From assembly GCA_947447995.1 (NCBI GenBank), contig CANFLQ010000011.1:1-43681 (forward strand): a stretch of 43,681 nt of DNA, read 5' to 3'. Numbering within the stretch: position 1 is the stretch's first letter; each line of letters starts with the position of its first letter. Origin of the DNA: Bacteroidota bacterium (GTDB lineage: Bacteria; Bacteroidota; Bacteroidia; 2-12-FULL-35-15). The position numbers and the translations under genes are program-made. Below, piece after piece: positions 1-37,506 of the stretch. The notes under the pieces were generated by a model, which was given only the letters and a program-made list of their open reading frames with translations, searched no databases and was not told the DNA's origin.

Positions 1-75
1 CCATTTTATATCGGCTATGTATTTTATACATTCTTCCTCTGTCTTAAAATATTGGTTGAATTTTATTGAATTCAT
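1..75 (-). CDS. Putative IS1595-like transposase N-terminus, truncated by the window edge
   Basis: Reverse strand from 75 reads MNSIKFNQYFKTEEECIKYIADIKW and is open to the window edge. It resembles the N-termini of zinc-ribbon IS1595-family transposases. Only 25 codons are visible. Confidence 0.45.
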   Translation of the reverse strand, partial: MNSIKFNQYFKTEEECIKYIADIKW

Positions 76-23959: not shown

Positions 23960-26338
23960 TTACTTTTTTTTACTTACAATCTCAAACCGTTGAGTAATTG
24001 ATTCACCTTCCTGATCCACAAGCGTGAGTATATGTATTCCTTCATCGGGTGTTAATCCCATTTGATGTATGTTTTGGGTGCTGCCTAAATAATTACCATC
24101 CAAATGCCAGTAAATAGTAGTATTTGCTTTGCGATGCGCTACCTGAAAAACTGTTTTCCCCATTGTTCCATTTAATTCCACCGGCACATATATTTTACTG
24201 AACTGTTTAGGATAAATGATTTCCATGGCGTTTATCCCGTTTGTTTCGCAATCGGATCGGAATGGAGGTAACTCTTTATAGCTAGCGTTCTTGGATTTAT
24301 AATACCATTCTAAAGCGGGTGGCAATACAAACCAGCTTAGGTGTTGCATTTTATTTACATTTTCACAATTACTATTTACTCTGTATTTACCGCTTGCATC
24401 CACATGTATCAATTGATGGTATTTGCAGGATTCTGAACGCAACCCAGTATTTTGTATCCACATAGTATCAATGGGTTCACAAATGTCTGATGCTCTTGCT
24501 CCACTTTGGTGGCAAATGACAACCTTTTCCATCTCGTCGTAAGGCGGTAAAAACCATTTTCCGGGTTTTAATAAACTGAAAATGTCGAACAAAATTGGAG
24601 CGGCAGTTTGTATACCAGTTAATCCCGGGCGACCTTCACCATCGGCATTACCCACCCAAACACCAACTACATATTTAGGCGTAACGCCAACCGCCCATCC
24701 GTCTCGGTAACCAAAGCTTGTTCCTGTTTTCCATGCTACTTTACTTGCCGATGTGTATTGCCTCCAGCCAGCTTCTTCGTCGGGGCGAGATACTTCTACC
24801 ATTGCTTCCAATGTTAAGTAAATGGATGCAGCGTTTAAAAAAGAGGTTTCATTTAAGTCGATGTCTTCGTTTTTATCTTGTAATGTATAATATGGAGGAT
24901 GAAAATCTTTGTTATTGTATTTCCCATTGTATTCTCTGAAATGATTTAGGGTGCGTGCCATGCTGGCGTACATTCCTGTGATGTCCCATAATTTACCTTC
25001 TGCACCACCCAAAATAATGGTTAATCCGTAATGGTCGGGACTAAAATGCAAGGTAGTCATACCCATTTTTTTTAAATTATGATTGAACTTTTCGATACCA
25101 TAATTTTGAAGCATGCGCACGGCAGGTATGTTTAAACTTCTTGCCAACGCACGTTTAGCAGGAACAGCACCATCAAAGGTTTGATTGTAATTTTGAGGCG
25201 TATACCCTGCAATTTGTGTGGGGATATCGGGTACAAGGGTTGAGGAAAGTAATTCTCCTTCATTCAGCATATTGGCAAACAAAAATGGTTTTAAAATACT
25301 ACCTGTACTGCGCTCTGAAGTGATAATATCCACATCACTTTCATATTCCAATTTGCCTGTATTGTTGGTATTGCCGACATAAGCAAGCACATTGCCTGTT
25401 TCTACGTCCAATACAATTGCGCAAGCATTGTGAATTTCGTTGGAGCGTAAAATTTTATGATGGTTTTCGATGATCTCATTTACTATTTCTTGCAAAGCGC
25501 CATCTATAGTGGATATTACCCGCTTGCCTTCAAAGCCTTCCTTGGCAGAGCGTTGCAACAAATGAGGCGCAATTTGTGGTATAGCATGGGGCTTTCCGGG
25601 TAGGGCTTCTTGTTTACTGAGTTCAAATGTTTCTTCATCAATAATGTTTGCAAGTAATAGTTGATTGAGTAGTCGGTTGCGTTTTTTGCGAAGCCTTTCT
25701 TCATTTTTCCCCGGATAAATTAAACTGGGAGCATTGGGTAAAATGGCTAAAGTTGCCGCTTCTGCCCAAGATAGTGTAGATGCATTCCTTCCAAAATATC
25801 GCCAGGAAGCAGCGTCCACGCCCACTACATTGCCGCCAAAAGGTGCGTTGGAAGCATACAGTGTAAGTATTTCGGATTTGGAATATGTCAATTCCATTCT
25901 GACAGCTAAAATAATTTCGATTAGCTTTTCAAAATAGCTACGACTCTTTCCTTTACGGGAAAGTCGGATTACCTGCATAGAAATAGTACTTCCGCCACTT
26001 ACCGTTTTTTTTGCTTTTATATTTTGTTTGATAGCACGAACAAATGCACTGGGACTGAATCCTAAATGATGATAAAAACCTCTGTCTTCAAATTGAACCA
26101 GACTGGCAATAAATTTATCAGGAACGGTTTTGCTCATCGGGAAACGCCATTGCCCGTCACCTGCGATGCGGGCAGATAAAAGATTCCCTTTGTTATCTTC
26201 TAAAACGGTACTTGTTTGATCTTTAAATAGAGGAGAAGGTAAACACAACCAAAACCAACTGCAGAGCAGAATGGAGATGATTGTGTAAATTCCTTTTTTT
26301 GTTTTTAGGAAGAGAAGGAGTGGGGTGATTTTTTTCAT
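23960..26338 (-). CDS. pbpC: Penicillin-binding protein 1C (bifunctional glycosyltransferase/transpeptidase)
   Basis: GT51 region VQFEDRGFYHHLGFSPSAFVRAIKQN, transpeptidase STGSILKPFLFA, KTGTSFGYRDGWAVGVTPKYVVGVWVGN, and a C-terminal BiPBP_C-like domain. Confidence 0.93.
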   Translation of the reverse strand: MKKITPLLLFLKTKKGIYTIISILLCSWFWLCLPSPLFKDQTSTVLEDNKGNLLSARIAGDGQWRFPMSKTVPDKFIASLVQFEDRGFYHHLGFSPSAFVRAIKQNIKAKKTVSGGSTISMQVIRLSRKGKSRSYFEKLIEIILAVRMELTYSKSEILTLYASNAPFGGNVVGVDAASWRYFGRNASTLSWAEAATLAILPNAPSLIYPGKNEERLRKKRNRLLNQLLLANIIDEETFELSKQEALPGKPHAIPQIAPHLLQRSAKEGFEGKRVISTIDGALQEIVNEIIENHHKILRSNEIHNACAIVLDVETGNVLAYVGNTNNTGKLEYESDVDIITSERSTGSILKPFLFANMLNEGELLSSTLVPDIPTQIAGYTPQNYNQTFDGAVPAKRALARSLNIPAVRMLQNYGIEKFNHNLKKMGMTTLHFSPDHYGLTIILGGAEGKLWDITGMYASMARTLNHFREYNGKYNNKDFHPPYYTLQDKNEDIDLNETSFLNAASIYLTLEAMVEVSRPDEEAGWRQYTSASKVAWKTGTSFGYRDGWAVGVTPKYVVGVWVGNADGEGRPGLTGIQTAAPILFDIFSLLKPGKWFLPPYDEMEKVVICHQSGARASDICEPIDTMWIQNTGLRSESCKYHQLIHVDASGKYRVNSNCENVNKMQHLSWFVLPPALEWYYKSKNASYKELPPFRSDCETNGINAMEIIYPKQFSKIYVPVELNGTMGKTVFQVAHRKANTTIYWHLDGNYLGSTQNIHQMGLTPDEGIHILTLVDQEGESITQRFEIVSKKK

Positions 26339-26642: not shown

Positions 26643-28214
26643 TTAAAGTAAAATATTGCACATTTTAATAAAGCTTTCAAATGTATATTCCGAATTCATC
26701 TTTAAAACCCAATCTTTTTGTTTTATTAAATATTCGCAAAATAGTATTAAAACAATGTCTCCTTCACTATTATTAACGTGGTAAAATTGTTTTAAAAATG
26801 AGCTCCCACCGGTGGCAAAACTTAAATATTCTATTTCAGATGGCGTAAAATATGCCAATACATGGTTGTATGCATACGGTGATATATTGGGTGAATTTTG
26901 TTTGGTTTGTGGATTTATATCAGGATTACCCTTTAAGGCAATTTTTTGCAAAGAAATTGAAAAACTATCTAATCCTAAATTGTTTTGGATAATATTTAAT
27001 ACTACAGAGAATGATTGAGGGTTGTTTTTGTTAATTCTGTTATGGTCATTTAAATAAGCAATTGCATAGTTGGTTTGCTTTCTATTGTAATCAGAAAGCA
27101 CTTTAAATTCTTTTGGATAAAATTCGTAAAGTATAATAAAAAATAACACAAAAATAGTTTCTAACAAATCACCATCTCCTCCTATGATAATATTAGGAAT
27201 TAAATGTTTTTGTGCATTAGGTAAACTTCCCTGCAATTTGAAATTTCTAATAATTTCAAATTTATTTAGTACCTTTTTTAAATGTCGAGGATTAGTGAAA
27301 TTTATTGATTTGAAAAATTTTTCAATAAAAATTGAGTGAGAACCTTGAATACCGTAATAAATTGTCCCTTCAGGAAAATAATGTAGTAAAAATTTATGAA
27401 TTGAAATATCCTGAGGCATGTTAAATGAAACATCGATTACTTTTTCAAGATACTCATCTGCTTTAATAATATCCCCATATTTATGTTGTACCGCTTTACT
27501 GATAGCCTCCTTGTCGCAACCAAAGAAGAATATTACGTCTTTGCTGTATGTGAAAAATAATTTTATAGAACTGATTAATTCTAAAACGTTTTCGGGTTCG
27601 CACCTGTCAAGGTCATCAATAAAGATGATAAGTTTTTTCTTTTTCGCATTTTTTAAAATCTCAGTTTCAATTTTCTCAAAATTTTCTTTAAACTCTTTTG
27701 TTTTAGTAAATTTTGATTCTGCTTTTTTGATTCTTTCTTTATCATAGGTCTCAAAGTTCTCAAATGCTTTTGCTGGGTCTAGTTTTGCACTTACACCTGT
27801 GGTTAATTCTAATAGCATTCCACTTTCAATAGATATGGATTTTGTTAAAGATTTAAAAATATGCCATGCTGTTTCTTTAAACTTAATTAATTCATTTGTT
27901 AACGAGATTCCAGAATTTTCAGAAATGAAATGGACTAATGATAGAGGTAAGTTTTCATCTTTTTCGAATTCCCACGCAGGGAAATATAAGCTTTTATAAT
28001 CATTGTTTTCAAGCTCTTTACCAATGTATTTCATTAAGGTACTCTTTCCGCTTCCCCAGTTTCCGTATAAGGCAAACATATTCGAGTCTGTTAGATCATT
28101 AATGTTGCTTTTGAAAAAAGAAATAATAGCGTTCCCTTTGTCAATATGTCCAAAGGAATCGCTATCATCAGTTAATATAATTTCTCTATTGGGTAAATGT
28201 CTAGTTTTCATCAT
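26643..28214 (-). CDS. KAP-family P-loop NTPase
   Basis: Walker A ALYGNWGSGKSTLMKYIG, Walker B KLIIFIDDLDRCEPENVLELISSIKLFF, sensor-like NPRHLKKVLNKFE. No transmembrane insert seen between the Walker motifs. Confidence 0.85.
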   Translation of the reverse strand: MMKTRHLPNREIILTDDSDSFGHIDKGNAIISFFKSNINDLTDSNMFALYGNWGSGKSTLMKYIGKELENNDYKSLYFPAWEFEKDENLPLSLVHFISENSGISLTNELIKFKETAWHIFKSLTKSISIESGMLLELTTGVSAKLDPAKAFENFETYDKERIKKAESKFTKTKEFKENFEKIETEILKNAKKKKLIIFIDDLDRCEPENVLELISSIKLFFTYSKDVIFFFGCDKEAISKAVQHKYGDIIKADEYLEKVIDVSFNMPQDISIHKFLLHYFPEGTIYYGIQGSHSIFIEKFFKSINFTNPRHLKKVLNKFEIIRNFKLQGSLPNAQKHLIPNIIIGGDGDLLETIFVLFFIILYEFYPKEFKVLSDYNRKQTNYAIAYLNDHNRINKNNPQSFSVVLNIIQNNLGLDSFSISLQKIALKGNPDINPQTKQNSPNISPYAYNHVLAYFTPSEIEYLSFATGGSSFLKQFYHVNNSEGDIVLILFCEYLIKQKDWVLKMNSEYTFESFIKMCNILL

Positions 28215-28244: not shown

Positions 28245-31200
28245 TTACTCCCCCGCTTTCACTACTTCTACCCATTTACCAGCTTTACGTGCGTTAATGG
28301 TATTATCGTACATGGCCTCACAATAAATAGTAGGCAAATAAAATTTACCGATATACGCTGCATTTAATACAATACGGTAGGTATTGGTTTTAAATGGTGA
28401 AATGTTAAAGTAAGTGTACACCCTGTCATCGCGTATGTCCTGATACGTGGCATAATCACTTTTTATAGTGCTTTCAGCATCATCCATACGGGTATTGTGT
28501 ATTTCCCAACCACTTGGGAATATTTGTGACAATGCCATTTGTAAATATTCACCACGTGTTCCCGGATTGCTTATCTGAGCTTCAGCAATAAAGTCGGTGC
28601 CTTGTTCTAATTTAGTAACATCAATTTCTTCACCTTTCATAGTGGTGTATCTGATGCTTACTTTTAAATCATTATTGACATCTGTTTTATCGCCTGTTTC
28701 GGGAATACCTTCTAAAATAACGCGAGCAAATAAAATGCCTTTGCCATTGTTTACAATGCTTAGTTTACCTGCTGATGCACCTTTTAATTGCATATCAATT
28801 TGTTTTAAAGGCAATTTGGTATTTAAGCTGATAGGGCTGTTGTTATTGATAGTTGCAGTATAACGCATTTCGCTGCTGCTGCCACTTGTGCCAGCAAATT
28901 TAGAAACTGCAATTAAACAATATGCTGTTGTTTGTGTACTCATCCAATAACCTGAATTCAACGCTTTAGAAACTTCTTTTGCCATTAATGCAGCTTTTGT
29001 TTTCATACCCAGTAAGGTGAGTGTTTCCAATATCATCGCCTCATCGCGGTCGGAAGAGCCATAACTATATGCCATTTCGCTGTATTTAGGAATAGCAGTT
29101 GTTAAATTGGCAATTAAATTTTTAGCTACTTCAGGCTGTCCGGCTTTTACATAGGCCGCAGCCAATCGCCATCTGGCAGAAACAGAAAGTGTTTTAGATT
29201 CTTTCAATCTGTTCATAGCACCCAACTCAGGAGCTTTTGCTAAAGCCAGTGTATATAAACGGTATGCCTGATCTAAGTCATCGTTGTAATAATAACTTTC
29301 TTTTCCTCTTGGCGACCAGGTATTTGCTTTGTTACGTTGGTAACGTTTCCAGTTATCCATAAAACCTACCGGAAGGGTATATCCTTTTAATTCAGCTTCA
29401 ATCATAAAATGACCGGCATAATTTGTTCCCCAATCGTCAGCATCATATTGTCCAGCCCAATAGCTCATTCCACCTGCTGAAGTTTGGAATAATTTCAGAC
29501 GTTCAATTCCTGCTTTGATATTTCTATCAATGGTAATTTTATAATCGCTGCTCAACTCCATGATGTCACTCAAATACAATTGGGGGAAAACGGATGAGGT
29601 AGTTTGCTCCACACAGCCATGTGGATAACCAATCAGATAATTTAAGCGTGTGCCTAAATTGATTGGAGGTATGGATGACAATTCAATAGTTCCTTTGTTT
29701 GTGCCCGTCATGCCGGCAGGGGTATATGTTGTATTCCATGTTTTACCTGCTTCAACAATGCCTTCCAATACATTTACTACTTTCGGGTTAGGATTGCGTA
29801 CATCAATTTCAATGTCATAATTCACTTTTTCTGTACCACTGGTAGCAACAATATGTACTTTACCAACCCCTAGTTTGGAATTTACTTTTAATTTAAAAGT
29901 AACCATATCATCACCCACTTCTTTAAATGTAATGGCTTTATAAGCGCCGTCTAATAAGGTGAACATGTTGTTTGCCTGAATTTCTACTTTTACATTTTTT
30001 ATTTGTTTTTCCATTGCAAACACGGTAACAGGCAGGTCAACCGATTCGCCGGGACCGACAACTCGGGGTAAAGTTCCCAATATCATTAATGGTTTACGAA
30101 CAGGAGTTGTTTTGTCGGCCGAGCCATAAGCTGCTTTATAACCAGCAATTACCATTGTTCTTACCGATCCAACATATTGAGGCATCATAAATTCGTGGGT
30201 TGCTGTTTCTCCTTTTTTTAAGAAGAAGGGACCCATAAATTTTACCATGGGTTTAAAGCGGTTAGCTTTGTTGCCTGCTTTATTGTTCAAATCTCCATCA
30301 CCACCAATTGCCAATATGCGCGATAGTTCAGCACCAAAAGCACCCATAACCATATCAAACATATCCCATGTTTTTACGCCCAAAGCTTCACGTGCATAAA
30401 AAGATGAATAAGCATCCGGGGTTTTAAAACGTGTAAGATCCAATAATCCATCATCTACTATTGCAATGGTGTAGGTCATTTCCTTGCCATTTTTTTCTGA
30501 TACTTTTAAGCTGGATTTTGTTTCCGGTTTCCATACTTCAGGAGTTGTAATAACAGGGAATAGATGCGTGTTAGGATCTTCAACCGATATAGGAATAACG
30601 CCATATAATCGTATGGGAAGGTCGTTAACTGTTTGTGCGTGCGGTTGCACTAATGTTACATTCACATAAACATTTGGCGACATAGCAGGAGTAACTTTAA
30701 AGCTATAATCGGTAGTGCCTTTTTTAGTTTCAACCCAATACGCTTCAATTACTTTTGACCCACTTTCAATACTTACCAATGCGCGTCCTACAGCGCTGGA
30801 AGGGATGGTAAGTTTTACATCTTCACCCACTTTGTATTGTTTTTTATCGCTTGAAAAAGAGAGTAGGGTAGCACCCTCACTTCCTCGTGGAGATGATCCT
30901 GCCCAAGATGGCCAATCCATGTAAAAGGTTTGTCCGGTAGTATGTCCGCTTTCTTCATCGGTTACACGTGCATAATAGCGTCCCCAGTTTGGTTGATTTA
31001 TACGAAGTGTAAACTGTCCATTACCATTCACAGTTGATATATTCATTGTTTGGTAAATCTCTTCGGAGCTGCTGCCAACATAATTAGCCAAATCGCCGTT
31101 ATAACTATCCCACCACCAACGCCACGATACTTTATAGATCTGTACTTTTAGTTTTTTGCGCGACACAGGTTTCCCATCGCTATCAACAGTAACCACTTTT

Positions 31201-33839
31201 ACACTATTGTCTTTATCTGTTTCCAGCATACCTGTAAATTTATTGCCTTCCGGCATTTTAATTCCCACGTAACTATCGTATGGAGAATACGGCATAGAAA
31301 ACTGATCCACACTAAATGCTCCGCCTTGCTCAAATACACGTACTTTAAAACTTGCGCGTAACATACCCGGAGCAGCATTTTCTACATTTATATTTGGTTT
31401 AATTAGAGCAATACCACGTTCCATCAAATTTCCATCAAATATGCTTTGTGCTTCTGATTTAAAGCTTCTGGCAGCATCGTCAAATACATACTCTTCGTAT
31501 TTTTTAAATGTTGTATTTGTTCCGCTTAAAGTTACTTCTACTTTGGCATTTAAGTTTTTTGCAATAGCACCGTGCAGCCATTTTACTTCCAGTGTTCCGG
31601 CTTCCTCTTTTTTATTTGCGTAAAGTTTATCGGCTTTAAAATCCAGATGGATCTTTAAACGATTTGGCATTATGGTTTCTATTTTGATATTTTTTGTAAA
31701 CCATACACCACCCACTTTTACGCGGGCTGTCCAGTTTCCTGTAGGCGAACTTTTGTCGGTTGTAGTTGCAAAATTGTAAAAACCATTCAATGTATTTACT
31801 TTGGTTATTTTTTTAAAAACCTGCCCTTGCGGATTTAACAATTCAAATTGTACAGGATGATTTTCAGGTAATGTATTTTGTTTGTCTTCTAAAATAAAGG
31901 ATAAAAATAATGTGTCGCCTGGACGCCACACGCCACGCTCACCATAAATAAATCCTTTTATTCCTTTTTGAATTTGTTCGCCTGAAACATCAAAAGCACT
32001 TAACGAAAGTGAAGAACCATCGTCCAGTTTTAAATAACCTCTTTGAGTGCCGCTTTTTACAAGCATTAAAAACGGTTTCTTTTTGAATGTAGCCTCGCAC
32101 ATCCCATCTTTATTTGTTTTCAGGCTTTTAATTACCTGTAATTGATAATCCAATAACTCAACTGTGGCATCCGAAACAGGTTGGGTAGTAATAAGGTTGG
32201 TAACAATAAAATTCATAGAACCTTCTGTTCCTCGTTTTGCAATTAAACCGAGGTCTGATGCCAGTACATTTCTGTAAACTTCTTTGTTTCTATAATATGC
32301 GCTGTTACAAGGATTTTCTCTTTCCTTATAATCGTAATCATCGCCATCGTAGTATTCGTAATCATCGTAATAATAATCACTGTAATATTCCCATTCGTTT
32401 TCATTTTCATCGTCTTCATTATCTTCCACTTCTTGCAGACCCTCATTTCCAGTATCCGAGCTTTCTCCGCTACAGGTGAATGTAGAATATGATTTTCTGA
32501 AACTGATGATTACTTTATAGATTGCGCCAGGTTCAGCTTTAATTAATTCAGCAAGATCAAGTGAGTAAGTGTTCCATTTGCCCAATTCCATTTTGCTTTT
32601 TTGTGTCAGTTGAATTGTTTTTTTTAATACAACTTTACCAACACGGCTCAATTCTCGTTGTCCGGAAGCACTTGCATTTACCTGAAAGAATTGAGGGATA
32701 TTTTTTTCGTAAATTTTTAGAATCTTGACATCAATAGCTTTTAAGCTCACCGCTCTGAAAGGAAAAATAAGACCGTTGGAGTTGGGAAGGATAACACCTT
32801 TACCAATTAGTTCCACTCTGGGTTTTAACTCTTCAAACATCAGTTCCATTGAATATTTTTCTTTCAAGGACATGCCTAAAATATTTTTAACAGCCGCCTC
32901 TACAAAAATGGTACGCGCTCCGCCTTGGCGGGATGAAGGGTAAACACGAATCTCATTATCTTCAATGATGTATTTTAAACCGTTACATTGAGATATAGAT
33001 ATTAAGCCGGATAAATTTTGATTTTCTAATACAGGATCAGAAAACTGTAATGCAACATATTGTTCCGGACTTTGAATAACTTTGACATCTAGTATTTTAA
33101 AATCGCCAAGAGCAGGGATTTGAAACGCTTTATTTCCTTCCAATTCTACATTAATAGGTTTTCCATCCCATTGAACGATGACGCTGTCTGCCTTTTCAGA
33201 CCTTTGTACACCATCAGCCGAAAAATGATGGCTTGTTCTGGTGGGTTCATGTATCCAGGTAAGCGGTAGCGATTTACCATTTTGCATCACCGTTACAATT
33301 TTTTCTATCAGCAAAGGATCTGCAACATCAGCTGTAGCTAAGGTTCCATCCAAGCGTTGTGTACGCAGTGTTTTTTTATCGGTGGTAGTCATACCATCAA
33401 TAAAAACTTCAAAGGATTGTTGCATCGTTTGGAAATCAAAATCGAATGTTTCAAATCCATCTGGAACTTTTAAAATTTCGGATAAATAAAATTCAGCTTT
33501 GTATTCGGTATTGTTTGGTAAAGGATGTTCGGGCCTAAACTCAATGGTTCTTTTATCCAACCAAACCGCAGAACCTTTTATTGAGGGAGAAAAATCGAAT
33601 AGTGTTTTTTCGATAGGTTTTCCAATTGTTATAGAGTCTTCCATATCGTTGGTTAACAAAATTCGAATGGTTGATTCGTTGGAAATTATTCCTGATGTGA
33701 AGGCATTTATATACGCAGCAAAAGCTGGATTCTCTTTGTTTTCGGAAGAAGATGAAGACCCTTTTTTATAGAACAAGGTAAATCCGATTAACAGTGCTGT
33801 AACAAGGCTACTGATAATCAACAATAAACGTTTTGACAT
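28245..33839 (-). CDS. Bacterial alpha-2-macroglobulin family protein (YfhM-like)
   Basis: 1864 aa; N-terminal membrane anchor, MG-like domains, PQYVGSVRTMVIAG, thioester motif YPHGCVEQ. Confidence 0.93.
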   Translation of the reverse strand: MSKRLLLIISSLVTALLIGFTLFYKKGSSSSSENKENPAFAAYINAFTSGIISNESTIRILLTNDMEDSITIGKPIEKTLFDFSPSIKGSAVWLDKRTIEFRPEHPLPNNTEYKAEFYLSEILKVPDGFETFDFDFQTMQQSFEVFIDGMTTTDKKTLRTQRLDGTLATADVADPLLIEKIVTVMQNGKSLPLTWIHEPTRTSHHFSADGVQRSEKADSVIVQWDGKPINVELEGNKAFQIPALGDFKILDVKVIQSPEQYVALQFSDPVLENQNLSGLISISQCNGLKYIIEDNEIRVYPSSRQGGARTIFVEAAVKNILGMSLKEKYSMELMFEELKPRVELIGKGVILPNSNGLIFPFRAVSLKAIDVKILKIYEKNIPQFFQVNASASGQRELSRVGKVVLKKTIQLTQKSKMELGKWNTYSLDLAELIKAEPGAIYKVIISFRKSYSTFTCSGESSDTGNEGLQEVEDNEDDENENEWEYYSDYYYDDYEYYDGDDYDYKERENPCNSAYYRNKEVYRNVLASDLGLIAKRGTEGSMNFIVTNLITTQPVSDATVELLDYQLQVIKSLKTNKDGMCEATFKKKPFLMLVKSGTQRGYLKLDDGSSLSLSAFDVSGEQIQKGIKGFIYGERGVWRPGDTLFLSFILEDKQNTLPENHPVQFELLNPQGQVFKKITKVNTLNGFYNFATTTDKSSPTGNWTARVKVGGVWFTKNIKIETIMPNRLKIHLDFKADKLYANKKEEAGTLEVKWLHGAIAKNLNAKVEVTLSGTNTTFKKYEEYVFDDAARSFKSEAQSIFDGNLMERGIALIKPNINVENAAPGMLRASFKVRVFEQGGAFSVDQFSMPYSPYDSYVGIKMPEGNKFTGMLETDKDNSVKVVTVDSDGKPVSRKKLKVQIYKVSWRWWWDSYNGDLANYVGSSSEEIYQTMNISTVNGNGQFTLRINQPNWGRYYARVTDEESGHTTGQTFYMDWPSWAGSSPRGSEGATLLSFSSDKKQYKVGEDVKLTIPSSAVGRALVSIESGSKVIEAYWVETKKGTTDYSFKVTPAMSPNVYVNVTLVQPHAQTVNDLPIRLYGVIPISVEDPNTHLFPVITTPEVWKPETKSSLKVSEKNGKEMTYTIAIVDDGLLDLTRFKTPDAYSSFYAREALGVKTWDMFDMVMGAFGAELSRILAIGGDGDLNNKAGNKANRFKPMVKFMGPFFLKKGETATHEFMMPQYVGSVRTMVIAGYKAAYGSADKTTPVRKPLMILGTLPRVVGPGESVDLPVTVFAMEKQIKNVKVEIQANNMFTLLDGAYKAITFKEVGDDMVTFKLKVNSKLGVGKVHIVATSGTEKVNYDIEIDVRNPNPKVVNVLEGIVEAGKTWNTTYTPAGMTGTNKGTIELSSIPPINLGTRLNYLIGYPHGCVEQTTSSVFPQLYLSDIMELSSDYKITIDRNIKAGIERLKLFQTSAGGMSYWAGQYDADDWGTNYAGHFMIEAELKGYTLPVGFMDNWKRYQRNKANTWSPRGKESYYYNDDLDQAYRLYTLALAKAPELGAMNRLKESKTLSVSARWRLAAAYVKAGQPEVAKNLIANLTTAIPKYSEMAYSYGSSDRDEAMILETLTLLGMKTKAALMAKEVSKALNSGYWMSTQTTAYCLIAVSKFAGTSGSSSEMRYTATINNNSPISLNTKLPLKQIDMQLKGASAGKLSIVNNGKGILFARVILEGIPETGDKTDVNNDLKVSIRYTTMKGEEIDVTKLEQGTDFIAEAQISNPGTRGEYLQMALSQIFPSGWEIHNTRMDDAESTIKSDYATYQDIRDDRVYTYFNISPFKTNTYRIVLNAAYIGKFYLPTIYCEAMYDNTINARKAGKWVEVVKAGE

Positions 33840-33989: not shown

Positions 33990-34097
33990 TCAAATATGAA
34001 ATAGCTTAGGAACAAAAATAAACGCCTCAACACACAGTGCTGTTATTGCAGCAACTAAAACCGCTGCTGCACTCATATCTTTTACCTTTTTTGCCAT
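33990..34097 (-). pseudogene. C-terminal remnant of a diacylglycerol kinase (DgkA-like) gene
   Basis: Minus strand encodes MAKKVKDMSAAAVLVAAITALCVEAFIFVPKLFHI*, matching the last transmembrane segment of DgkA. No recognisable N-terminal part upstream. Confidence 0.6.
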
Positions 34098-34197
34098 TTT
34101 TGTATTGATATAGATAATGTATAAATTCCAAATTCGCCTAAAATTCCCATGCTTAATTACAGCATCCAACTTTTTTATTTCGATAATTCTTTAAAAT

Positions 34198-34221
34198 AAC
34201 TTTCAAATATATTTGAAAGTT
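34198..34221. promoter_or_regulatory. 24-bp perfect palindrome, candidate GbsR operator O1
   Basis: AACTTTCAAATA|TATTTGAAAGTT; contains the TTTG used as -33. Confidence 0.7.
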
Positions 34222-34242
34222 CAGAAACATATTGTATGTTTG
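34212..34242 (+). promoter_or_regulatory. Promoter of the GbsR-like gene: TTTG-N19-TATGTTTG
   Basis: TTTG 34212-34215, 19-nt spacer, TATGTTTG 34235-34242. Confidence 0.7.
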
Positions 34243-34246
34243 CCGT

Positions 34247-34753
34247 ATGAAATTACCGGAAGCAAAAGATAAATTTATGCAAGCATGGGGTACATTAGGA
34301 TCCAGCTGGGGAATTAACAGAACCATGGCACAAGTTCATGCCTTATTATTAATTTCTCCAGATCCATTAAGTGCCGAAGATATAATGGAGGAGTTAAAAA
34401 TTTCGAGAGGAAATGCAAACATGAATGTGCGTGCATTGATTGATTGGGGATTGGTAAGTAAAACATTTAAGTCGGGTGAACGTAAAGAATTTTTTTCTGC
34501 TGAAAAGGATATTTGGAAAGTAGCAACTCAGGTAATGAAAGAAAGAAGAAAAAGAGAATTAGAGCCTGTATTAAAATTGCTTCATGAACTGAGTAATGTG
34601 GAAGGTGATAAAAAAGATAAGAATATAAAAGCATTTAACGATTCTATAAACGGTATTAAGGGTGTTGTTTCAAAGGCGGATAAAACTATTGAAACCATAA
34701 TAAAAGCAGACGAAAGCTGGTTTGTTGGGTCATTTTTGAAATTGATGAAATAG
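34247..34753 (+). CDS. GbsR/MarR-family transcriptional regulator
   Basis: MQAWGTLGSSWGINRTMAQVHALLLISPDPLSAEDIMEELKISRGNANMNVRALIDWGLVSK. Start placed at MKLPEAKDKF. Confidence 0.88.
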   Translation: MKLPEAKDKFMQAWGTLGSSWGINRTMAQVHALLLISPDPLSAEDIMEELKISRGNANMNVRALIDWGLVSKTFKSGERKEFFSAEKDIWKVATQVMKERRKRELEPVLKLLHELSNVEGDKKDKNIKAFNDSINGIKGVVSKADKTIETIIKADESWFVGSFLKLMK

Positions 34754-34770
34754 CTTTTTTTATAATAATA

Positions 34771-34788
34771 TTTCAATAATTATTGAAA
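34771..34788. promoter_or_regulatory. 18-bp perfect palindrome, candidate GbsR operator O2
   Basis: TTTCAATAA|TTATTGAAA; same TTTCAA-N6-TTGAAA layout as O1. Confidence 0.65.
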
Positions 34789-34847
34789 CTTTAGAAAGTA
34801 CAATATTTTAAAAAGAGGTGTACCATAATCGATTAAATAGAATCATC

Positions 34848-35656: not shown

Positions 35657-36586
35657 ATGAAAAAATATAAAAAAATTGTTCTTGCAGGAGGCACAGGACA
35701 AATTGGTACGGCTTTAATAAAACACTTTAAAGGGCTTACGGATAAAATAATTATACTTAGCCGGGGTGCCGAAAAGCAAGTGGATAATTTACAGTATTTG
35801 AATTGGGATGGGAAAAATGTGGGACCATGGGCAAAAGAAATAGAGGATGCAGATATACTATTTAATTTGGCAGGCAAAAATGTAAACTGTAGGTATACCG
35901 AAAAAAATAAAAAAGAAATTTTTGATTCCAGAACCGACTCCATTAAGGTATTGGCTAAAGCTATTGCAAATTGTAAACAAGTCCCTAAACTTTGGATGCA
36001 GAGCGCTTCTGCTACTATTTACAGACATTCCGAAGATAGACCGATGTCTGAAAAAGATCTTGAAATTGGTGATGGATTTTCTGTTGACGTATGTAAAAAA
36101 TGGGAAAAAACATTTTGGGAAGAAACCGAACAATTTAAAGATATGCGCAAGGTAATACTTAGAACAAGTTTGGTATTGGGCAAAAAAGAAGGTGTTTTTC
36201 CACGATTAAAAAATCTGACTTTGTTGGGTTTAGGTGGCAAACAGGGTAGTGGCAAACAATGGGTAAGCTGGATACATGAACAAGATGTGGTTGGTCTTTC
36301 TGAATGGATTGCAGACCATAATGAGATAAATGGAATAATAAATTGTACTGCTCCAGTTCCTGTAAAAAATACTGAATTTATGAAAGCTTTTCAAAACGCT
36401 TATAAAATGCCGATAGGATTGCCTTCTCCTAAATGGTTGTTGGAACTAGGCGCATTTGTTATTGGAACCGAAACAGAATTGATATTAAAAAGCAGGTGGG
36501 TGTTACCAACTAAACTTTTAATTTCCGGTTTTAAATTTCAATACCCGGAAATAAATTCTGCGGTTAATCAAATTGTTGAAGAGTAA
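35657..36586 (+). CDS. TIGR01777-like SDR-superfamily epimerase
   Basis: IVLAGGTGQIGTALIKHF, LINLAGKNVNCRYTEKNKKEIFDSR, QSASATIYRHSED, KKWEKTFWEE, LRTSLVLGKKEGVFPRLK. Confidence 0.9.
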   Translation: MKKYKKIVLAGGTGQIGTALIKHFKGLTDKIIILSRGAEKQVDNLQYLNWDGKNVGPWAKEIEDADILFNLAGKNVNCRYTEKNKKEIFDSRTDSIKVLAKAIANCKQVPKLWMQSASATIYRHSEDRPMSEKDLEIGDGFSVDVCKKWEKTFWEETEQFKDMRKVILRTSLVLGKKEGVFPRLKNLTLLGLGGKQGSGKQWVSWIHEQDVVGLSEWIADHNEINGIINCTAPVPVKNTEFMKAFQNAYKMPIGLPSPKWLLELGAFVIGTETELILKSRWVLPTKLLISGFKFQYPEINSAVNQIVEE

Positions 36587-36693: not shown

Positions 36694-37506
36694 ATGCTCA
36701 ATTTAAAAAGGCTGCTTCATTCTATTATTACCGAAGCTGAAAAGGATAAACAAGTATCAGCCAATAATACTAAGTTGGAAAAAAAAGTACTTATCACTTT
36801 TATCGTTGTTCCTTTTTGCCTTACAATGATTAATTATTGGGGCAATTATAGTTTTGTAAGAAACTGGTTAATAAGTATTGATGCGACTGACGTTGTAAAA
36901 TCAATGGATAGGGTTATATATCATTCATCAGCGAATAATCTGGGCAGTCTTTGTTATTGGGTTTGTAATCTTTTTTTATTTTACTTCGTTATTCCTGCAC
37001 TCACTATAAAATTTATTTTTAAAGAAAATTTATCAGACTATGGTTTAAAGTTGAATGGGGCTTTTAAGGATTATTATTTATACATTATCATGTTGATGGT
37101 AATGATACCATTGGTTGCCTATTTCTCTGGTACTGCATCTTTTCAAGAACGTTATCCCTTTTTAAAAGTAGGTGAAGGCGATTCTCTTTTTCCTGATTTG
37201 TTGAAATGGGAATTATTTTATTGTGCACAATTTTTCGCTTTGGAATTTTTTTTTAGAGGATTTATTTTGTTCGGGCTCACACCCAAATTAGGATTTTATT
37301 CGGTATTTGTAATGACGATTCCTTATTGTATGATACATTTCGGTAAACCTTTGCCCGAAACCCTTGCAGCTATTTTTGCCGGAATAGTATTGGGCTGTCT
37401 CAGTTTAAAAAATCGGTCGGTTTGGTTAGGGTTTTTAATTCATTGTTCGGTTGGTGTGGGCATGGATTTGGCTGCATTGTGGCAAAAGGGATTAATCCAT
37501 TTTTAG
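36694..37506 (+). CDS. CPBP-family intramembrane protease-like protein with atypical active site
   Basis: Multi-pass; FALEFFFRGFILFG (CPBP motif 1 with first Glu replaced by Leu), PYCMIHFGKPLPETLAAIFAGIVLG. Confidence 0.8.
   Translation: MLNLKRLLHSIITEAEKDKQVSANNTKLEKKVLITFIVVPFCLTMINYWGNYSFVRNWLISIDATDVVKSMDRVIYHSSANNLGSLCYWVCNLFLFYFVIPALTIKFIFKENLSDYGLKLNGAFKDYYLYIIMLMVMIPLVAYFSGTASFQERYPFLKVGEGDSLFPDLLKWELFYCAQFFALEFFFRGFILFGLTPKLGFYSVFVMTIPYCMIHFGKPLPETLAAIFAGIVLGCLSLKNRSVWLGFLIHCSVGVGMDLAALWQKGLIHF

Follow-up and report, generated by a model that had tools for sequence, protein, structure and literature searches.

A conserved palindromic operator pair predicted to serve autoregulation of a Bacteroidota GbsR-type repressor and control of an adjacent DCC-SDR operon

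CydE of the gammaproteobacterium Alishewanella sp. WH16-1 is a GbsR-type repressor that binds its own promoter region, where DNase footprinting located its site 1 (TATTTCAGAAATTTCTGAAAGTTCA), and that governs cytochrome bd genes in a sulfate-responsive manner (PMC6096048). In Bacillus subtilis, the MarR-superfamily repressor GbsR, which belongs to the Mj223-like fold class, responds to choline and controls gbsAB and opuB through an A/T-rich inverted repeat whose half-sites are separated by 4 bp (PMC7396694, PMC6207618), and its operators lie downstream of the transcription start, where it acts as a roadblock (PMC7396694). OpcR, a separate B. subtilis protein with a regulon of opuC and opuB and another operator sequence, represses by covering the promoter -35 region (PMC7396694). 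Mj223 of Methanocaldococcus jannaschii (PDB 1ku9) serves as the structural template for GbsR-type proteins (PMC6207618). In a 2018 survey of GbsR-type proteins, no consistent set of targets emerged for those of Bacteroidetes (PMC6207618), and a literature search with little reach into subscription journals returned no described Bacteroidota GbsR operator.

The locus analysed here lies in a Bacteroidota contig of 43,681 nucleotides, which in its full length we refer to as the window. It comprises the following features:
34198-34221, no strand assigned: O1, predicted 24-bp palindromic operator, AACTTTCAAATATATTTGAAAGTT, with its core at 34201-34218
34212-34215, plus strand: TTTG within the right arm of O1, predicted -33 element for the regulator gene, read from the sequence
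34235-34242, plus strand: TATGTTTG, predicted -7 element, 6/6 of TAnnTTTG, 4 nt before the ATG
34247-34753, plus strand: GbsR-type/MarR-family regulator of 168 aa (MarR_2 and Mj223 matches; alignment A1)
34755-34762, plus strand: TTTTTTTA, candidate -7 box of P2 (the predicted promoter of the operon), weak at 4/6 of the consensus and lying 8 bp before O2
34771-34788, no strand assigned: O2, predicted palindromic operator, TTTCAATAATTATTGAAA, at about +5 to +22 of P2
34848-35654, plus strand: putative first gene of the target operon, DCC1-like thiol-disulfide oxidoreductase domain protein with a hydrophobic C-terminal region (PF04134, E 1.5e-7, above cut-off)
35657-36586, plus strand: putative second gene of the target operon, TIGR01777-family SDR, YfcH-like (TIGR01777, 270 bits against a cut-off of 207)

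We propose, with a probability of roughly 0.8, that O1 and O2 are operators of the GbsR-type repressor encoded between them, which would bar access to the promoter at O1 and hinder transcription in its early phase at O2. With a dimer bound at O1, the -33 element of the probably leaderless promoter that drives the regulator gene would be covered and RNA polymerase excluded, so that occupancy of O1 would result in negative autoregulation. The DCC-SDR pair would have a promoter of its own, and a second dimer, on O2 just past the start site of that promoter, would block initiation or early elongation; a ligand would release O1 and O2 together. A dimeric repressor would suit the palindromic form of the sites. 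In this scheme O1 resembles the -35 occlusion used by OpcR, and O2 the downstream roadblock of B. subtilis GbsR; the locus appears to differ from GbsR in choline response, controlled genes and operator architecture, and from OpcR in regulon and operator sequence. Sequence comparison provides the sites, their conservation, their restriction to the locus, their fixed spacing to promoter elements and their resemblance to a footprinted GbsR-type operator; what we infer, for this organism, is that the protein binds the DNA, that it represses and does not activate, where transcription starts and that there is an inducer.

An earlier note, made from the sequence of this stretch, had called the regulator GbsR-like, and profile searches agree. 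The protein matches the MarR-type winged helix-turn-helix domain MarR_2 (PF12802) with an E-value of 7.1e-8 and a score above the curated cut-off, and its best match of known structure is Mj223, found over residues 3-151 by phmmer with the single sequence (E 7.7e-17) and over nearly the full length with a 16-sequence profile (E 7.1e-23). Assignment to the GbsR type within the MarR superfamily is thus supported. Against the equivalog model for the choline regulators CudC/GbsR (NF047500) the regulator reaches 54.3 bits, the cut-off being 218. Orthologues were found in 48 of 148 relatives searched. In alignment A1, S53-R54-G55-N56, N60 and R62 are invariant within a near-invariant SRGNANMN(V/L)R stretch of the DNA-binding domain; elsewhere in A1 the tryptophans W14, W21, W67 and W158 are likewise invariant. 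Homologues back the ATG at 34247 as the start codon; the TTG at 34232 was discarded as an artefact of the open reading frame listing.

The two matched palindromes described as flanking the regulator gene are both present exactly at 34198-34221 and 34771-34788, each with perfect dyad symmetry and with TTTCAA-N6-TTGAAA in common. The core itself is not rare: allowing one mismatch, a mean of 1.39 copies is expected in an AT-rich window of 44 kb. The 3.08-Mb genome, however, contains only five exact copies, compared with three of a reversed control pattern. Two of the five flank the regulator gene; the other three correspond to about 0.0006 copies expected by chance within the 591-bp stretch. The decisive evidence for the palindromes is their conservation and placement. 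A PWM was trained on about 40 loci of a first set, made up of the window and 40 further loci (L036-L075), with the window's own sites excluded from training. On this matrix O1 scores 30.2 bits, the best in the window, and O2 25.5 bits.

Within the first set, O1 (at most one mismatch) occurs in 37 loci and O2 (at most two mismatches) in 27. The second set of 80 loci, fetched after the PWM had been trained, came from named genomes including Chitinophaga, Niastella, Rufibacter, Mucilaginibacter, Rhodocytophaga, Saprospiraceae and a Flavobacteriales MAG, among others; in 75 of these loci O1 reached 14 bits or more and in five it stayed below, while the maxima of shuffled 200-bp sequences had a 99th percentile of -0.2 and a highest value of 7.5 bits. 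Locus L128 of the second set repeats one of the training loci, and a pair of Chitinophaga loci is 97% alike. With the duplicate removed, the pooled sets retain O1 in 111/120 loci and O2 in 77/120, and the proposal thereby withstands the check for which the earlier note had asked, conservation of the sites upstream of orthologous clusters. Four orthologue loci (L052, L053, L056 and L063) have no site of at least 13.5 bits in the fetched region. Three of them, L052, L053 and L056, retain the recognition-helix sequence despite the absence of O1. In these three the regulator lies close behind a gene of family 17 (in L052 at about 47 bp), which suggests that it is under different control there. Operator-like sites of 15.4-23.6 bits also occur further downstream, at +882 (L067), +897 (L054) and +1032 (L069) from the regulator start; in L067 and L054 the extra site follows a small membrane gene close behind the regulator, as if O2 had shifted by one gene boundary.

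The comparison extends beyond the Bacteroidota. Site 1 of CydE (TATTTCAGAAATTTCTGAAAGTTCA) follows the TTTCA-N8-TGAAAGTTCA pattern seen in O1 and O2, and it scores 21.6 bits on the Bacteroidota matrix, against a maximum of 13.6 bits among 2000 random 400-bp sequences, which suggests that the operator pattern spans phyla. Binding of CydE to its own promoter region corresponds to what is predicted for the regulator at O1. The two systems differ in the genes governed and in the sulfate response of CydE; the comparison here is one of operator sites rather than of aligned proteins, and the second footprinted CydE site (GGGATGCGCATATGCAAAT) is unlike O1 or O2.

At O1, the proposal that the -33 element for transcription of the regulator lies in the right arm is well borne out. 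TTTG-N19-TATGTTTG is literally present in the window and agrees at 6/6 positions with the Bacteroidota sigma-A promoter pattern, a TAnnTTTG -7 element with TTG or TTTG about 19 bp upstream. In 103/111 loci the start of the O1 core is followed, 33-35 bp further on, by a -7 box with at least 5/6 of TAnnTTTG. The distance from this box to the ATG is 3-5 nt in 66 of the 103 and up to 60 nt in the rest; because the spacing to the box is constant while the distance to the ATG varies, O1 appears to belong to the promoter and not to the gene start. In flavobacteria the -7 box occupies positions -12 to -5 (PMC9723704), which, together with the 4-nt gap, would make the A of the ATG the first transcribed base. 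We therefore predict a leaderless regulator mRNA starting at 34247, and likewise in the 66 loci with a short gap. Leaderless or nearly leaderless mRNAs are reported to make up 3.7-5.5% of the total in Bacteroidetes (PMC7366714, PMC9723704), and a frequently leaderless regulator mRNA would be unusual for the group. Adjoining O1 on the other side, the minus-strand reading frame 33990-34196 is a remnant of a prokaryotic diacylglycerol kinase: the C-terminal 30 residues alone match PF01219 (E 6.5e-6), an in-frame stop lies upstream, and the frame looks like a decayed dgkA.

O2 is arranged differently. In 44 of 48 loci that have O2 within 30 bp of the regulator stop (the near group, to which the window belongs), a TTT(G/A) element lies 8-9 bp upstream of O2, and TTTG-N7-9 precedes O2 in 16 of 27 first-set loci, where shuffled sequence gave a mean of 1.0; before O1, TTTG at this distance was found in 0/37 loci. 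Read as a -7 box, TTT(G/A) would put the transcription start 4-5 nt before O2, giving a predicted P2 start at about 34767 in the window with O2 just downstream. This start site is uncertain: the box in the window agrees at 4/6 positions, a search for a conserved -33 element among the O2 loci examined was negative, and in 24 of 30 loci with O2 more than 30 bp from the stop (the far group) the T-rich element doubles as the tail of a terminator hairpin. L130, L134, L137, L141, L151, L153, L166, L171 and others carry a terminator-like GC hairpin and TTTTATTT(G/A) immediately upstream of O2, and the T-tract TTTTATTT may serve both as a terminator tail and as the -7 element of the next promoter.

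A first alternative, which we regard as unlikely, is that O2 has no promoter of its own and acts as a roadblock or as an auxiliary looping operator on a single read-through transcript started at O1. Such a transcript is plausible in L055 and L064, where O2 is absent and the DCC-SDR pair follows directly, the DCC start lying about 10 bp or less behind the regulator stop. Near-group loci are also compatible with it, a terminator-like hairpin having been found in 0/48 (fold z +0.9 in the window). In the far group, by contrast, a hairpin resembling an intrinsic terminator separates the regulator from O2 in 24 of 30 loci, which implies that regulator and operon are separate transcription units there. 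Two further observations argue against this alternative: the TTT(G/A) element keeps its place beside O2 in loci where O2 lies at another distance from the stop codon (L036, L037, L062), and the O1-O2 spacing ranges from 565 to 716 bp with no fixed value, leaving a defined loop unsupported.

The earlier note had assumed the same architecture at both sites, with each right arm acting as an occluded -33 element and O2 repressing a promoter with TATTTTAA at 34804-34811 as its -7 box. The TTG at 34783-34785, an 18-nt spacer and TATTTTAA are literally present in the window, and the unusually long distance of 76 bp between O2 and the next ATG would accommodate them. This reading is nevertheless improbable, as TATTTTAA fits 4/6 of the fixed bases of TAnnTTTG and an O1-like -7 box (at least 5/6, at O2+33..35) occurs in just 5 of 77 O2 loci, compared with 103/111 at O1. 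In 24 of 27 first-set loci the next ATG lies 19-47 bp from the start of O2, so that most O2 loci have no room for an O1-like geometry, and in L125, the closest relative with a regulator 86% identical, the stretch aligned with TATTTTAA holds the start codon of the next gene. Coverage of a -33 element thus stands for O1 and falls for O2, for which a block just after a predicted start site is the better model.

The assignment of O2 to a target operon agrees with gene content. Among 121 loci, the commonest downstream family is the TIGR01777 SDR (60 loci), followed by a small membrane protein family (31) and DCC (26); a 158-aa family, a membrane protein with a weak Polyketide_cyc2-like match, DUF2071, a fatty acid desaturase and a methyltransferase are rarer. 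Of the 78 loci with O2, 73 have at least one of the listed target families downstream, against 17 of the 43 that lack O2 (Fisher p about 1e-10, indicative only, since the loci are related), in line with the earlier expectation that O2 precedes a target operon, here the DCC-SDR pair. On these comparisons, a widespread Bacteroidota GbsR subfamily may control a redox/lipid-like operon from one operator sequence used at two mechanistically different positions of the locus, one covering the -33 element of the regulator's leaderless promoter and the other just past the transcription start of the target genes; we consider the odds for and against this generalisation to be even. If true, the dual placement would unite modes that are split between OpcR and GbsR in B. 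subtilis. What is new is a predicted binding site and targets for the Bacteroidota GbsR branch, the mode of control being ordinary in kind. The operator pair points to a likely target operon and offers a precise DNA site that is testable in cultured species, Chitinophaga pinensis and Niastella yeongjuensis among them.

A genome scan with a fixed TTTCA-N8-TGAAA core recovered O1 and O2 as the top two sites; all others examined scored at most 14.4 bits, the next best lying inside an ORF and nearly all within long ORFs. Genome scanning, suggested earlier as a way to define the regulon, thus returned the two known sites as its best and yielded no wider regulon. As the remaining matches are low-scoring and mostly within ORFs, a wider regulon was rejected and the regulon appears confined to the regulator locus, although the core was fixed and the assembly is 94% complete, so that a more degenerate distant target could escape. 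A strong extra site in one relative (G017, L108; 28.1 bits) also lies within an ORF. Scanning 23 relatives with a stricter pattern gave mostly the regulator locus or low-scoring sites; this pattern misses O1 variants beginning GTTTCA and was not used for presence or absence.

This distribution bears on whether another transcription factor, and not the adjacent GbsR-like protein, binds the palindromes. Autoregulation is deduced from proximity and a few orthologues have no site, as such a factor would allow. We consider it very improbable, given that the high-scoring genomic sites are found solely at the regulator gene, that O1 accompanies the gene at nearly all pooled loci (111/120) and that the footprinted site of another GbsR-type protein, CydE, matches. 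The palindromes are almost certainly the regulator's own binding sites, kept across many Bacteroidota. A role as RNA hairpins, whether terminator or attenuator, could draw on the perfect dyads and on the position of O2 within a predicted 5' leader, but can be virtually dismissed because O1 lies upstream of the predicted start and would hence be untranscribed from it, because the fold of O2 is weak (-4.1 kcal/mol, z -1.6), on which ground a hairpin role for O2 was rejected, and because conservation is found in the arms, as it is in a protein site, with the CydE match at the DNA level.

Two further observations concern the surroundings in the window. On the minus strand, a gene for a KAP-family P-loop NTPase lies between genes for a bacterial alpha-2-macroglobulin and a penicillin-binding protein (26643-28214, 23960-26338 and 28245-33839), the penicillin-binding protein gene encoding transglycosylase, transpeptidase and BiPBP_C domains. 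On the plus strand, 36694-37506 encodes a CPBP-type (Rce1-like) membrane protease whose match to the archaeomyxosortase MrtA falls below the cut-off (91.6 against 200 bits).
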